64,000 nucleotides of DNA, taken from assembly GCF_000016185.1 (NCBI RefSeq), contig NC_011420.2, positions 1,818,501-1,882,500 of the forward strand. Direction: 5' to 3'. The position numbers and the translations under genes were made by a program. This DNA comes from Rhodospirillum centenum SW. GTDB taxonomy: Bacteria > Pseudomonadota > Alphaproteobacteria > Azospirillales > Azospirillaceae. The notes under the pieces were generated by a model, which did not search any database, was not told the DNA's origin, and was given only the letters and a program-made list of their open reading frames with translations. Positions 13,626-19,683 of the stretch are shown piece after piece. Each line of letters begins with the position of its first letter. The first letter of the stretch is position 1.

Positions 13626-15467
13626 ATGCCATCCCCCACTGCGCCACCCTCCGCTGCACCGCCCCCTCCCTCGGATGCGCTTCCCGCGTGGCGTCTGCTG
13701 ACCCGGCAGGCTCAGACCGCCCTGGCGGTCGTCGGGCTGGTTTCCCTGCTGACCATCGTCGCAGACCTGACCCTGGCGGGATCGGGCGGGGACGTGACCG
13801 CCCTGATCGCGGGACGCCTCGGCCTGGTGGCGGCGTCGCTGGCCGTGCTGCGGCTGACCTTCCTGCCGCCCGCACCGAAACGGCTGGGCATGGCGCTGGC
13901 GCTCTGGCAGGCGATGCTGATCCTGCTCCAGTTCGCCACCGTGACCGTATGGCCGCCGGGCCTGCCGGCCGACGTGGCGGCTCTGGTCTTCCTGCTCGCG
14001 GTCTACATGCTGCTGCCGAACCCGCTGGCGGTTGCGATCGGGTTGGGAACGGTCCTGACGCTGGGGCATCTCGGCCTTGCCTGGGGTCTGTCGCCGACCG
14101 GCTCTCCGCCGGAGCCGGCCGTGCTGCTGGCGGCTGCTGCAGCGAACTTCATCGGCATCCTCTCCATCCAGCGCCAGCAGATGCAGGCCCGCGTTCTCAG
14201 CGTGCTGCGGGAGGAGGAGGAGCGGCGGCGCGGCGCCGAGCTGATGCTGGCCGCCGAGCGCGACGGCTGGGAGCGCGCCCGCGCCATCTCCCGTGCCGAG
14301 CGCGCCGCCTTCCTCCAGTGCGTGCCGGTTCCGCTGCTGCTGCTGGACGCTGACGGCACACCCACCGTCCACAGCCGCATGGCGGAGGACCTGCTGGACG
14401 GGCTCTCGCCGGAGAAGGTCCAGACCTGGTTCAAGGCTCTGCTCACCTGCCCCAGCGGCCAGTGCCGCGAGGCGCATTTCCAGACCGTAGACGGCGCTGC
14501 CCGCATCCTGATGGCCTCCAGCCGCCCGGTTTCCATCGAGGGGGCGCCCCTGCTCGTGGTGGTGCTGGCCGACGTGACGAAGCTGCGCCGGCTGGAGACG
14601 GAGGCCCTGACCCAGGAAGCGGCCCGCCGGGCGCCCGCCATCGGCGGTGCACCTCCCCGGCAGGGCCGGAGCCTTTCGGTGCTGCTGGTGGAGGATGACG
14701 ATGTCAGCCGCATCCTGGCGCGCACCCTTCTGGAACAGGACGGCCACCGGGTGACCGAAGCGGTCACCGGCAACGAAGCGGTGACCTGCGCCGCGGCCGG
14801 CGGCTTCGACGTGGTGCTGATGGACATCCGGCTGCCGGGCCTGGGGGGACCGGCAGCAGCCCGGGCGATCCGCGCGTTGCCCGACGACGCGCAGCGCGTT
14901 CCCATCGTCGCCATGACGGCCAGCATGGCGCCGGCCCAGCTGGCGCGCTACCGCGCGTCCGGCATGGATCTGGTGCTGGCCAAGCCTGTCGATCGTGATT
15001 CCCTGCGCGCCCTGCTGGCGGAGATCGTGGCCCCTGCAGCCTGCCCCCTGCCGGGCGGGGCAGCCCCCCCGTCCGGACCGGAGGATGTCAGCGTCCCCGC
15101 CGTCAGCGGGTCCGCCGAGGCGCATCTCGACCACAGCGTGCTGGACGGACACCGGGCGGTACTGGGCGAATCGCGCATCGCCGTGGTGATCGACCGCTTC
15201 CTGGATGCCGCTCCGGAGACGGTCGGTGCCGCCGTCAGCGCCGGCAGCGACGGCGACATGGCCGCGCTGGCGAAGGCCGCGCACAAGCTGGGCAGCGGGG
15301 CCCTGACGGTGGGGCTCAGGCCGCTGGCGGATCTGGCCCGGCGGATCGAGGCACAGGCGGAGAAGGGCGACGAAAGGGAGGCCCGCGCCGGGGCCGAACG
15401 TCTGCACACCCTGTTCCGGGCCGGGGCGGACGAGCTGAACGCCTACCGGCGGCGTCTGGCGGAATGA
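13626..15467 (+). CDS. Membrane PAS-REC-HPt phosphorelay protein without a histidine-kinase core
   Basis: 613 residues in four parts. Residues ~30-185 hold about six hydrophobic helices; ~190-225 a charged coiled coil (LREEEERRRGAEL); ~225-325 a PAS-like domain (FLQCVPVPLLLLDADGTP). Next comes a receiver domain (LSVLLVEDDDVSRILARTLL, phospho-acceptor Asp400 in VVLMDIRLPG, Lys in VLAKPVD) and then an HPt domain at the C-terminus with His553 in KAAHKLGSGAL. No HisKA dimerisation helix and no HATPase N/G1/G2 box lie between the PAS and receiver domains: only ~20 residues separate them. The layout resembles TorS-type hybrid kinases with the catalytic core missing. The downstream convergent gene encodes a TorR-like regulator that could receive phosphate from His553; the donor kinase would have to come from elsewhere. 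There is a small AT-rich patch (TACTAT at 13592) upstream. Confidence 0.82.
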   Translation: MPSPTAPPSAAPPPPSDALPAWRLLTRQAQTALAVVGLVSLLTIVADLTLAGSGGDVTALIAGRLGLVAASLAVLRLTFLPPAPKRLGMALALWQAMLILLQFATVTVWPPGLPADVAALVFLLAVYMLLPNPLAVAIGLGTVLTLGHLGLAWGLSPTGSPPEPAVLLAAAAANFIGILSIQRQQMQARVLSVLREEEERRRGAELMLAAERDGWERARAISRAERAAFLQCVPVPLLLLDADGTPTVHSRMAEDLLDGLSPEKVQTWFKALLTCPSGQCREAHFQTVDGAARILMASSRPVSIEGAPLLVVVLADVTKLRRLETEALTQEAARRAPAIGGAPPRQGRSLSVLLVEDDDVSRILARTLLEQDGHRVTEAVTGNEAVTCAAAGGFDVVLMDIRLPGLGGPAAARAIRALPDDAQRVPIVAMTASMAPAQLARYRASGMDLVLAKPVDRDSLRALLAEIVAPAACPLPGGAAPPSGPEDVSVPAVSGSAEAHLDHSVLDGHRAVLGESRIAVVIDRFLDAAPETVGAAVSAGSDGDMAALAKAAHKLGSGALTVGLRPLADLARRIEAQAEKGDEREARAGAERLHTLFRAGADELNAYRRRLAE

Positions 15468-15510: not shown

Positions 15511-16236
15511 TCAGACCGGGTCGGTCACGTCCACGCCGAGACGGTAGCCGAGTCCCTTCTCCGTCAGGATCAGCCGGGGCGAGACGCCGGTGTCGCACAT
15601 CTTGCGGCGCAGCCGGCTGACCAGCACGTCGATGGTGCGGTCGTTGGGGTTGCGGTCGGTGCCGCTGACCGCGTCGATGAGCTGGTCGCGGGTCACCACC
15701 CGCCCGCCGGAGCGGACCAGCAGCGCCAGCAGTTCGAACTCGCCGCGGGTGACGCGGATTTCCTGCCCCTCCGGGTCGATCAGACGGCGGCGCGCCAGAT
15801 CCATGGTCCAGCCGCCGAAGCGGCGCACCGTGCCCTCCGCCCGGCGCATCTTGCTGGGGTGCGTGCGGCGCAGCAGGTTGCGCGCCCGCGCCAGCAGTTC
15901 CCGCGGGTTGGGCGGTTTCGTCACATAGTCGTCGCCGCCCGTCTCCAGACCGAAGACACGGTCGTCCTCGTTCGCCCGGTTGGTGACGATGATGATCCCG
16001 ACGTTGGAAATCTCGCGGATGCTGCGGGCGATGGAGAATCCGTCCTCGTCCGGCAGTTCGATGTCCAGCAGAACCAGGTCGGGCGGCTGACGCAGCAGCG
16101 CCTCCCGGGTCTGCCGGCCGTTCTCGGCCTCGGCGATGAGGAATCCCGCCTCATGGAAATAGGCGGCGAGAAGGGCCCGCGTGGCGGGCTCATCCTCGAC
16201 GATCAGTACCAAGGGCGCATCAGCAATTTCTGGCAT
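15511..16236 (-). CDS. OmpR/TorR-like response regulator
   Basis: 241 residues: an N-terminal receiver domain with the acidic pair ED in IVEDEPATR, phospho-acceptor Asp58 (LVLLDIELPDEDGF), the Thr/Ser position in IIIVTNRANE and Lys in DDYVTKPPNP, then a C-terminal winged helix (RGEFELLALLVRSGGRVVTR, DRTIDVLVSRLRRKM, GLGYRLG). The receiver closely recalls TorR (VGIIIVT, GLExGxDDYVTKP). It lies tail-to-tail with the PAS-REC-HPt gene, 43 bases apart, so the two probably form one signalling pathway. Regulon unknown; the gene is divergent from nothing and has a ~150-base upstream region shared with the end of putA. Confidence 0.93.
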   Translation of the reverse strand: MPEIADAPLVLIVEDEPATRALLAAYFHEAGFLIAEAENGRQTREALLRQPPDLVLLDIELPDEDGFSIARSIREISNVGIIIVTNRANEDDRVFGLETGGDDYVTKPPNPRELLARARNLLRRTHPSKMRRAEGTVRRFGGWTMDLARRRLIDPEGQEIRVTRGEFELLALLVRSGGRVVTRDQLIDAVSGTDRNPNDRTIDVLVSRLRRKMCDTGVSPRLILTEKGLGYRLGVDVTDPV

Positions 16237-16390: not shown

Positions 16391-19300
16391 TCAGCCGCCC
16401 AGGGCGAGAAGCGCCGTATTCCCGCCGAAGGCCGTCGTATTCACGGTCAGGGTCTTCTCTGTTGCAAAACGCAACAGATAGTGCGGCCCGCCGGCCTTGG
16501 GACCAGTGCCCGACAGGCCCTGCCCGCCGAAAGGTTGTACCCCGACGACGGCCCCGACCATGTTGCGGTTGATGTAGGTGTTGCCGACCCCCATCGTCCG
16601 GAACAGTTCGAAGGCACGGGTCTCCAGCCGGCTGTGGATGCCGAAGGTCAGACCGTACCCGGTGGACTGCAATCCGCGCACGACGCCGTCGATCTCGCCC
16701 GAGCGGAACCGGATCATGTGCAGCACCGGCCCGAACACCTCCCGCGGCAGCCGCGCGATGCCGTCGATCTCGTAGAAGCGCGGGCCGAAGAAGGTCCCGG
16801 CGGAGAGCGACTCCGGCACCGGAACGGCCTTGATCAGCCTGGCCTCCCGGTCCATGCGCCGGACATGCTCCTCCAGCACCTGCCGGGCGGGATCGTCGAT
16901 GATCGGGCCGACATCGGTGGCGAGATGGCGCGGATCGCCCAGGGTCAGCATGTCCATGGCGCCGGACAGCATCGCCGCCAGCCGGTCGGCGATCTCCTCC
17001 TGCGCGTAGAGGACCCGCAGGGCGGAGCAACGCTGCCCGGCGGAGAGGAAGGCGGACTGGATGCAGTCGTCCACCACCTGTTCCAGGAGCGCCGTGCTGT
17101 CCACGATCATGGCGTTCTGCCCGCCCGTCTCCGCGATCAGCGGCACGATGGGGCCGTCGCGGTCGGCGAGCGTGCGGTTGATGGCGCGGGCCGTCTCGGT
17201 CGAGCCGGTGAAGGCGACGCCGGCCACCCGCGGGTCGGCCACCAGCCGCGCGCCCACCGTCTCGCCCGTACCCGGCAGCAGGTGCAGCACCGCCCCGGGC
17301 ACGCCGGCCCGGTGGAAGCGCCGGACCACCTCGGCCGCGATCAGGGGCGTCTGTTCCGCCGGCTTGGCGACGACGCTGTTGCCCGCGGCCAGCGCCGCCG
17401 CCATCTGGCCGACGAAGATGGCGAGCGGGAAGTTCCACGGGCTGATGCAGGCGAAGACGCCGCGGCCGGCGAGGTAGAGGTCGTTGCTCTCCCCCGTCGG
17501 GCCGGGCAGCCGCAACGGGGTGCCGAACTGCTCGCGGGCACGGGCGGCGTAGTAACGGCAGAAATCCACCGCCTCGCGCAGCTCGGACGTGGCGTCGGGC
17601 AGGATCTTGCCGGCCTCGTGAACCAGAAGCCCCAGCAGCGGCGCGTCGTCGGCCTCCAGCGCGTCGGCCATGCGGTTCAGGATGTCCGCCCGGCGCTTGC
17701 CGCCCAGGCGGTCCCAGCCCGGCTGCGCCGCGGCGGCCAGCCCCACCGCCTCTTCGACCTGCGCGGCCGTGGCCTCGACCAGCGTGCCGACCGTCCGGCT
17801 CCGGTCAACGGGACTGGACACCGGCCGCCCCTGCCCGGAGAGCTGCCGCCCGCCCACGATGGGCGCGGCGGTCCAGCCGCCACCGGCCATCGCCTTGTCG
17901 ATCCGATGCAGCAGCGGCTCCACCGTCTCCGGCGCCGAGAGATCGTAGCCGCGGGAGTTGCGCCGCTCGCCGCCGTAGATGTCGGCCGGCACCGGGATCT
18001 TGGGATGGCGGGTCGCCGCCTCCTCCGTCATGGCCGCGACGGGATCGGCGACCACCCGCCCGACCGGCACGTCGGGGTCCATGTAGGTGTTGACGAAGCT
18101 GCTGCTGGCCCCGTTCTCCAGCAGGCGCCGGATCAGATAGGGCAGCAGGTCCGCATGCGTGCCGACAGGAGCGTAGACGCGCACCCGCGGCATCGCCGTC
18201 AGGGTCTCCCGCGCGGCCGTGTAGAGCAGTTCGCCCATGCCGAACAGCCGCTGGAACTCCAGATCGCGGTTCTCCCCCGCGATGTGCAGGATCGCGGCGA
18301 TGGTGAAGGCGTTGTGCGTGGCGAACTGGGGGAAGATCGCGTCGGAGGCGGCCAGCATCCGGCGGGCGCAGACCAGATAGGACAGGTCGGTCGCCGCCTT
18401 GCGCGTGTAGACCGGATAGTCCTCGTGCCCGGCCTGCTGGCTGTGCTTGATCTCCGAATCCCAGTAGGCGCCCTTGACGAGGCGGACCATGAAGCGGCGG
18501 CCGGCACGGCGGGCCGTGGCGGCCAGCCAGTCGATCACCCGCGGCGCCCGCTTCTGGTAGGCCTGCACGGCGACCCCCAGGCCGTTCCAGCCGGCCAGAT
18601 CGGGGTCGGTCGCCAGCGCCTCGACCACGTCCAGCGACAGGTCCAGCCGGTCCGCCTCCTCGGCGTCGATGGTGAAGTTGATGTTCCAGCGCTTCGCCGA
18701 GAGCGCCAGCGTCTTCACCCGCGGCACCAGCTCCGTCATCACCCGCGCCCGCTGGGCGAACTCATAGCGCGGATGCAGGGCGGACAGCTTGATCGAGACG
18801 CCGGAGGATTCCTGCGGGCCGCGTCCGCCGGCCTGGGCACCCACGGCGTCGATGGCCTGCTGGTAGGCGTCGAAATAGCGCTCCGCCTGTTCGGGATTGC
18901 GCGCCCCCTCGCCCAGCATGTCGAAGCTGAAGACGGTGCTGGCCGGCCTGGCCGAGCGGGCGACGGCAAGGGCAGCGTCGATGGTGCCGCCCATGACGAA
19001 ATGCTCACCCATCATGCGCATGGCCTTCGCCATGGCGGAACGGATCACCGGCTCGCCCGCCCGCTGTGCCACCCGCTTCAGGAAGCCCGGTGCATTGCCG
19101 CCGACCTCCGCCGGGTCCAGCTCGACCAGCCGGCCGGACAGCGCCAGGGCCCAGGCCGTGGCGTTCACGAAGGCGCTGTCGCTGTGGCCCAGATGGGTGT
19201 CCCACTGCCCCTGGCTCAGCTTCTCGGCGATCAGCCGGTCGGCCGTCTCCGGGTCGGCGACCCGGAGCAGGCACTCGGCGATGCACATCAGCGCGATGCC

Positions 19301-19549
19301 TTCGTGGTTGGTCAGCCCGAATTCCTGCAACAGCGCATCCAGCGGCCCCAGCTCGCGCCGGCGGCCGCGGGCGCCGTCCACCACCTTCACCGCCAGCTCG
19401 TGGATGAGCGCGCGCTCATCCGGCGTCAGGCCGTGCGCACCGGCCAACTGGGCGATGGCCTTGTCCTCGCACAGATGCTTGAGCGCGCGCAGGGCGTCGC
19501 GGATGACGGCGGGGTCGCTGGGCGGCGGGACGGCGAGCGGAGAGGGCAT
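16391..19549 (-). CDS. putA: Bifunctional proline dehydrogenase / L-glutamate gamma-semialdehyde dehydrogenase
   Basis: 1052 residues; converts proline to glutamate in two steps, first with FAD, then with NAD+. The PRODH domain includes the conserved RLVKGAYWDSEI (around residue 355) and YEFAQRARVM. The aldehyde dehydrogenase domain has GVAFTGSTETAR, the general base region IAETGGQNAM and the catalytic Cys in FLSAGQRCSALRV (around residue 840). There is no N-terminal ribbon-helix-helix DNA-binding domain and no long C-terminal extension, so this is the ~1000-residue class of PutA that does not regulate itself; the divergent Lrp-type gene fits that. ATG 19549 has AAGGTG eight bases upstream; ATG 19570 is an alternative. 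Confidence 0.96.
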   Translation of the reverse strand: MPSPLAVPPPSDPAVIRDALRALKHLCEDKAIAQLAGAHGLTPDERALIHELAVKVVDGARGRRRELGPLDALLQEFGLTNHEGIALMCIAECLLRVADPETADRLIAEKLSQGQWDTHLGHSDSAFVNATAWALALSGRLVELDPAEVGGNAPGFLKRVAQRAGEPVIRSAMAKAMRMMGEHFVMGGTIDAALAVARSARPASTVFSFDMLGEGARNPEQAERYFDAYQQAIDAVGAQAGGRGPQESSGVSIKLSALHPRYEFAQRARVMTELVPRVKTLALSAKRWNINFTIDAEEADRLDLSLDVVEALATDPDLAGWNGLGVAVQAYQKRAPRVIDWLAATARRAGRRFMVRLVKGAYWDSEIKHSQQAGHEDYPVYTRKAATDLSYLVCARRMLAASDAIFPQFATHNAFTIAAILHIAGENRDLEFQRLFGMGELLYTAARETLTAMPRVRVYAPVGTHADLLPYLIRRLLENGASSSFVNTYMDPDVPVGRVVADPVAAMTEEAATRHPKIPVPADIYGGERRNSRGYDLSAPETVEPLLHRIDKAMAGGGWTAAPIVGGRQLSGQGRPVSSPVDRSRTVGTLVEATAAQVEEAVGLAAAAQPGWDRLGGKRRADILNRMADALEADDAPLLGLLVHEAGKILPDATSELREAVDFCRYYAARAREQFGTPLRLPGPTGESNDLYLAGRGVFACISPWNFPLAIFVGQMAAALAAGNSVVAKPAEQTPLIAAEVVRRFHRAGVPGAVLHLLPGTGETVGARLVADPRVAGVAFTGSTETARAINRTLADRDGPIVPLIAETGGQNAMIVDSTALLEQVVDDCIQSAFLSAGQRCSALRVLYAQEEIADRLAAMLSGAMDMLTLGDPRHLATDVGPIIDDPARQVLEEHVRRMDREARLIKAVPVPESLSAGTFFGPRFYEIDGIARLPREVFGPVLHMIRFRSGEIDGVVRGLQSTGYGLTFGIHSRLETRAFELFRTMGVGNTYINRNMVGAVVGVQPFGGQGLSGTGPKAGGPHYLLRFATEKTLTVNTTAFGGNTALLALGG

Positions 19550-19609
19550 GGCGGCGACACCTTGCTGCATGGGCCTGGGGTGGATCGTCCGGCAATCTAG
19601 CCGATACAT

Positions 19610-19647
19610 CTGCGGATTTTCCGCCAACTTATACAGATTCGCAGTAT
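19610..19647. promoter_or_regulatory. Dyad-rich putA-putR intergenic region, candidate operator
   Basis: The divergent 134-bp spacer is AT-richer than its surroundings and holds a short palindrome, GCGGA-TTT-TCCGC (19612-19624), and an inverted pair, CTGCGGAT (19610-19617) and ATTCGCAG (19637-19644, complement CTGCGAAT). Lrp-family regulators bind imperfect dyads of this size, and the divergent gene is such a regulator. Binding itself is inferred. Confidence 0.5.
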
Positions 19648-19683
19648 GATCCACCAGAGCATGGCGGATCGACGGGAGAATCT

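Follow-up and report, generated by a model that had tools for sequence, protein, structure and literature searches.

How can a protein that carries a receiver and an HPt domain and lacks a kinase core take part in a phosphorelay, and from what could it have descended? These questions are raised by a 613-aa membrane PAS-REC-HPt protein, called X here, which is encoded on the plus strand at 13626-15467 of the window, the 64,000-nucleotide stretch of the Rhodospirillum centenum SW genome that was analysed. The initial annotation had offered two readings of this gene, a phosphate shuttle working with a kinase in trans and a relative of TorS that had lost its core, and proposed that the membrane and PAS parts gate phosphotransfer.

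Domain Architecture of X

The predicted layout was recovered in full by Pfam, AF2 modeling, hydropathy, and Foldseek. The open reading frame has a coding-like GC content by codon position (0.79/0.53/0.88), and its product has six membrane helices and a leading coiled-coil helix (residues 20-213, 13683-14264; AF2 model and hydropathy). A PAS domain (about residues 226-320, 14301-14585), a receiver domain (residues 352-464, 14679-15017; Pfam Response_reg, 73.8 bits), and an HPt domain (residues 522-595, 15189-15410; Pfam Hpt, 40.9 bits) follow on the same plus strand. The receiver and HPt folds are confident in the AF2 model, and inspection of the residues shows that X retains D400 (codon 14823-14825), the acidic residues 356-359, the receiver Thr, K453, and H553 of the HPt domain (codon 15282-15284). 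The PAS domain escapes Pfam at E<=1 and is missing from the whole-length AF2 model because the input alignment (A1) pairs it with the DHp domain of the homologue in genome G008. Folded separately, residues 196-345 yield a PAS domain with a pLDDT of 88, and the best Foldseek matches of this segment are PAS structures, FixL among them (E 2e-7).

Neither HisKA nor HATPase_c was matched in X by Pfam at E<=1. The PAS strands end at about residue 316 and the receiver starts at residue 352, leaving a gap of roughly 30 residues into which a kinase core cannot fit, as the initial annotation had argued. Loss of the core through an assembly or frame error was considered and rejected, given that the genome forms one contig of 4,355,543 bases and that homologues of X likewise lack HATPase. 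An ATPase domain encoded in an adjacent gene was also rejected, the nearest of the 56 HATPase matches in the genome lying about 21 kb away. A search of genome contigs for X returned mostly receiver-only matches from ordinary hybrid kinases, with no full-length relative among them.

The Convergent Regulator and Its Neighborhood

The X gene converges, across 43 bases in which no terminator was seen, on a minus-strand gene (15511-16236) for an OmpR-family (TorR/ArcA-like) regulator of 241 aa with Asp58 as phosphoacceptor. PF00072 and PF00486 both match above cut-off, corresponding to a receiver and a winged-helix C-terminal domain. Its description as TorR-like was borne out, in that TorR (NF008034) is the top model, though at 219.5 bits it falls under the curated cut-off of 275; the second NCBIfam model, ArcA, scores 204.8 bits against a cut-off of 334.

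A putA-type gene (16391-19654, minus strand) lies next to the regulator gene and is, by synteny, part of a conserved neighborhood, outside the relay itself. The gene order dehydrogenase, peptidoglycan-binding-like protein, X, regulator, putA, and Lrp-type regulator is largely kept in relatives, and at nearly all loci the regulator gene is downstream of putA on the same strand. A tie of the regulator to proline use is possible. In the draft genome G008, the regulator gene (L111:7113-7832, plus strand) has an in-frame TAG near codon 64, either an error or a mutation.

X Accompanies One Regulator in Many Layouts

Orthologues of the regulator, 86-91% identical across genera, were found in 20 of the 82 genomes of the family (the window genome included), and among 289 sampled genomes of the class, none beyond the family gave a match at E<1e-75. 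This identity and the position downstream of putA indicate that the output of the system is under strong constraint. All 20 of these genomes also encode a homologue of X, so that the kinase-less partner expected next to TorR-like genes is kept throughout; it adjoins the regulator in 17 and is located elsewhere in three (G018, G104, and G105), where the unlinked X proteins are 71-73% identical to that of G011. In those three genomes the regulator gene adjoins, as judged by eye, genes that resemble spoVR and the usual companions of spoVR (G018, L161; G105, L164; G104, L165). Genome G103, which is 93% complete, has a close match to neither X nor the regulator.

The layouts of the homologues differ widely. 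X of the window has the order TM-PAS-REC-HPt, the G008 protein TM-PAS-HisKA-REC-HPt, the G027 protein TM-HisKA-REC-HPt, and the 317-aa G032 protein REC-HPt. In eight genomes of genus g12 (L158-L160, L162, L163, and L178-L180), membrane helices are followed by what may be a DHp remnant, a pseudo-receiver lacking the Asp, in which ALVSARIG replaces VLMDIRLP, and an HPt domain. The degenerate DHp of these proteins is only suggestive (hhalign E 0.05, compared with E 0.025 for the membrane parts). In seven genomes of genus g2 and in G012, the protein is reduced to an HPt domain of 128-134 aa. HATPase was found neither in X of the window nor in any of the ten other X proteins that were scanned, two of which have HisKA; the other nine either align with scanned proteins over their whole length or consist of the HPt alone. 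Thus, the close homologues are not kinases from which the window copy would differ by an internal deletion.

Besides the start Met, only H553 and its HPt surroundings are invariant across the 20 proteins. The receiver is absent or lacks the Asp in 16 of the 20, which indicates that D400 is not essential to the function they share. Since the HPt is the only domain common to all of them and X accompanies the regulator even where the two genes are unlinked, the sequences suggest that HPt and regulator form the constant pairing. Relatives can do without the membrane, PAS, and receiver parts, so the gating of phosphotransfer proposed for the membrane and PAS parts can apply to some X members only.

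Probable Descent from a Hybrid Kinase

Outgroup comparisons point to the likely starting state. In genus g11, which we take to be Azospirillum-like, the genes of ten regulators of about 50% identity all converge on full HisKA-HATPase-REC-HPt hybrids, three of which carry a TorS sensor domain. In the regulator tree, the regulators with kinase-less partners form one group (support 100/100). The REC-HPt tails of X likewise form one group among 91 such tails in a quick tree (SH-aLRT 99), which places them, weakly, with some TorS-type hybrids (support 79). A PutA tree, used as a rough proxy for the species tree, separates the loss of the receiver and the origin of the pseudo-receiver into distinct events.

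The simplest account of these patterns would be a single loss of the ATPase domain before the genera split, followed by lineage-specific trimming. More broadly, the regulator may have kept its HPt partner while the sensor kinase was dismantled by different routes and control passed to a hybrid kinase acting in trans, so that the present proteins would be living intermediates on the way to free HPt proteins. The routes would comprise loss of the ATPase domain first and of the DHp next, loss of the receiver or its conversion into a tightly constrained pseudo-receiver, and finally retention of the HPt alone; taken as one account with its routes, this scenario has an even chance of being correct.

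Selective Constraint on X

In close pairs, X has an overall dN/dS of 0.21-0.36, which corresponds to purifying selection, with values of 0.08-0.11 for the pseudo-receiver and 0.12-0.19 for the HPt of the same proteins. Because the pseudo-receiver is the most constrained part of X despite its missing Asp, it probably serves in contacts. When X of the window is compared with that of G008, constraint is strongest on the receiver (dN/dS 0.34), against about 0.8 for the membrane and PAS parts; these are rough values, as divergence at synonymous sites is large. The fast divergence of the membrane and PAS parts, together with the lack of some domains in many homologues, could be taken as signs of gene decay or of an assembly artefact, X then being a kinase seen partway through its loss; this reading is disfavoured and highly improbable, because the catalytic residues of the receiver and HPt are all intact in a single-contig genome, no homologue has HATPase, and the close pairs are under purifying selection.

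A Proposed Model for Phosphotransfer by X

Based on the comparative data, X is probably a hybrid kinase minus its catalytic core, which would survive as the dedicated HPt phosphotransferase of the regulator, in an RcsD-like role, with its kinase supplied in trans. The two readings of the initial annotation would therewith be combined into one. The ancestor of X would have been a TorS/ArcB-type hybrid kinase convergent on its OmpR-family regulator. In the clade ancestor the ATPase domain would have been lost and the HPt retained as the regulator's phosphotransferase, the other domains later being kept or shed differently by lineage. X of the window would then act as a membrane-anchored REC-HPt shuttle, with membrane and PAS parts that may sense a signal. 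A hybrid kinase encoded elsewhere would give phosphate to D400, or to H553 from its own receiver; H553 would hand it to D58 of the regulator, this being the presumed direction of flow, and D400 may also drain phosphate.

Lacking a kinase, an HPt depends on a receiver supplied in trans. The window genome encodes about nine hybrid kinases that have a C-terminal receiver and in which HPt was undetected, so that potential trans donors exist, and outside kinases its Hpt matches are limited to X and two small proteins. For one hybrid kinase (G000:C1:2659888-2662170), matches at E<1e-150 are confined to the four genomes with an intact X receiver. This PAS-rich kinase, which has no HPt, is part of a locus (L239:3234-7674, corresponding to G000:C1:2657733-2662173) in which its neighbors are a small DHp-like protein and a NarL-type regulator. 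This NarL-type regulator may, we assume, be a relative of FlcA. The kinase is a lead only as the trans donor, since the NarL-type regulator lies beside it and the family survey covered just two kinases; another kinase (L212) showed no comparably clean pattern in 12 genomes.

The same observations bear on a broader role for X. Many HPt-less hybrid kinases for few stand-alone HPts, and a candidate donor that is confined to the four intact-receiver genomes and sits beside a NarL-type gene, would fit a general HPt for other regulators, for which the place beside the TorR-like regulator was inherited and that regulator is one client, with G000:C1:2659888-2662170 as candidate donor. This is a doubtful reading, however: X accompanies one and the same regulator in all 20 genomes, and just two losses on the PutA tree suffice for the four-genome match of the kinase, so that co-occurrence in a survey of two kinases may be coincidence.

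The main rival to the dedicated phosphotransferase concerns the direction of flow. X could work chiefly in reverse, as a phosphatase or sink: phosphate would leave the regulator by way of H553 and end up on D400 or on a receiver in trans, and the regulator would receive its charge from another kinase or a small-molecule donor. Phosphate can flow either way through HPt relays, and the phosphate on RcsB is lowered by RcsC with RcsD (PMC5651002). The receiver and HPt of the window protein are both intact, and no dedicated kinase is present nearby, which would suit such a sink. However, the sink role is judged unlikely, as 16 of the 20 X proteins lack a functional receiver of their own and a built-in drain is therefore not the conserved function.

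Relation to Known Phosphorelays

RcsD lies in the membrane, does not autophosphorylate, carries an HPt at its C-terminal end, and works with a hybrid kinase in trans (PMC5651002). X resembles it, in domain content only, as a kinase-less membrane protein with a C-terminal HPt serving a regulator. X differs from RcsD in the receiver that precedes its HPt, in its six-helix membrane part with a PAS domain, in having relatives reduced to a bare HPt, and in its OmpR-family partner, RcsB being of the FixJ/NarL family. No RcsD name appears among the best 25 of the 87 NCBIfam matches, and ABL is unmatched in Pfam. The receiver-HPt tail of X is best matched by the TorS model (TIGR02956, positions 702-967), and the likeness extends to the TorR match of the neighboring regulator and to the full TorS-type pairs of the outgroup within the family. 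However, X lacks HisKA, HATPase, and the TorS sensor domain, and scores 119.4 bits against a cut-off of 676.5.

In the ShkA-ShpA-TacA relay, ShpA is a stand-alone HPt fed by the receiver of a hybrid kinase (PMC7010744). The bare HPt homologues of genus g2 and G012 would be proteins of this kind, whereas in X of the window the HPt is joined to a membrane part, a PAS domain, and a receiver. Five common phosphorelay layouts (M1-M4 and M2') cover 5,182 of 5,219 surveyed operons (PMC8199921); the same four types of phosphorylatable domain are expected overall in the relay of X, but its receiver-HPt fusion without a kinase falls outside all five. No description of the X protein came up in literature searches, and the portion of an Azospirillum survey that was consulted (PMC4618731) describes no such class. 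X is a variant within a kind already known, the kinase-less HPt proteins, and its homologues make up an unusually full series of intermediate layouts.

More generally, arguments about the origin of stand-alone HPt and kinase-less relay proteins have mostly started from end points such as RcsD. In the present case, the homologous partners of a single regulator include proteins with HisKA but no ATPase domain, proteins with neither, pseudo-receiver proteins, and bare HPts, which makes the order of loss testable. The point at which control shifts to a kinase in trans becomes testable in the same way.
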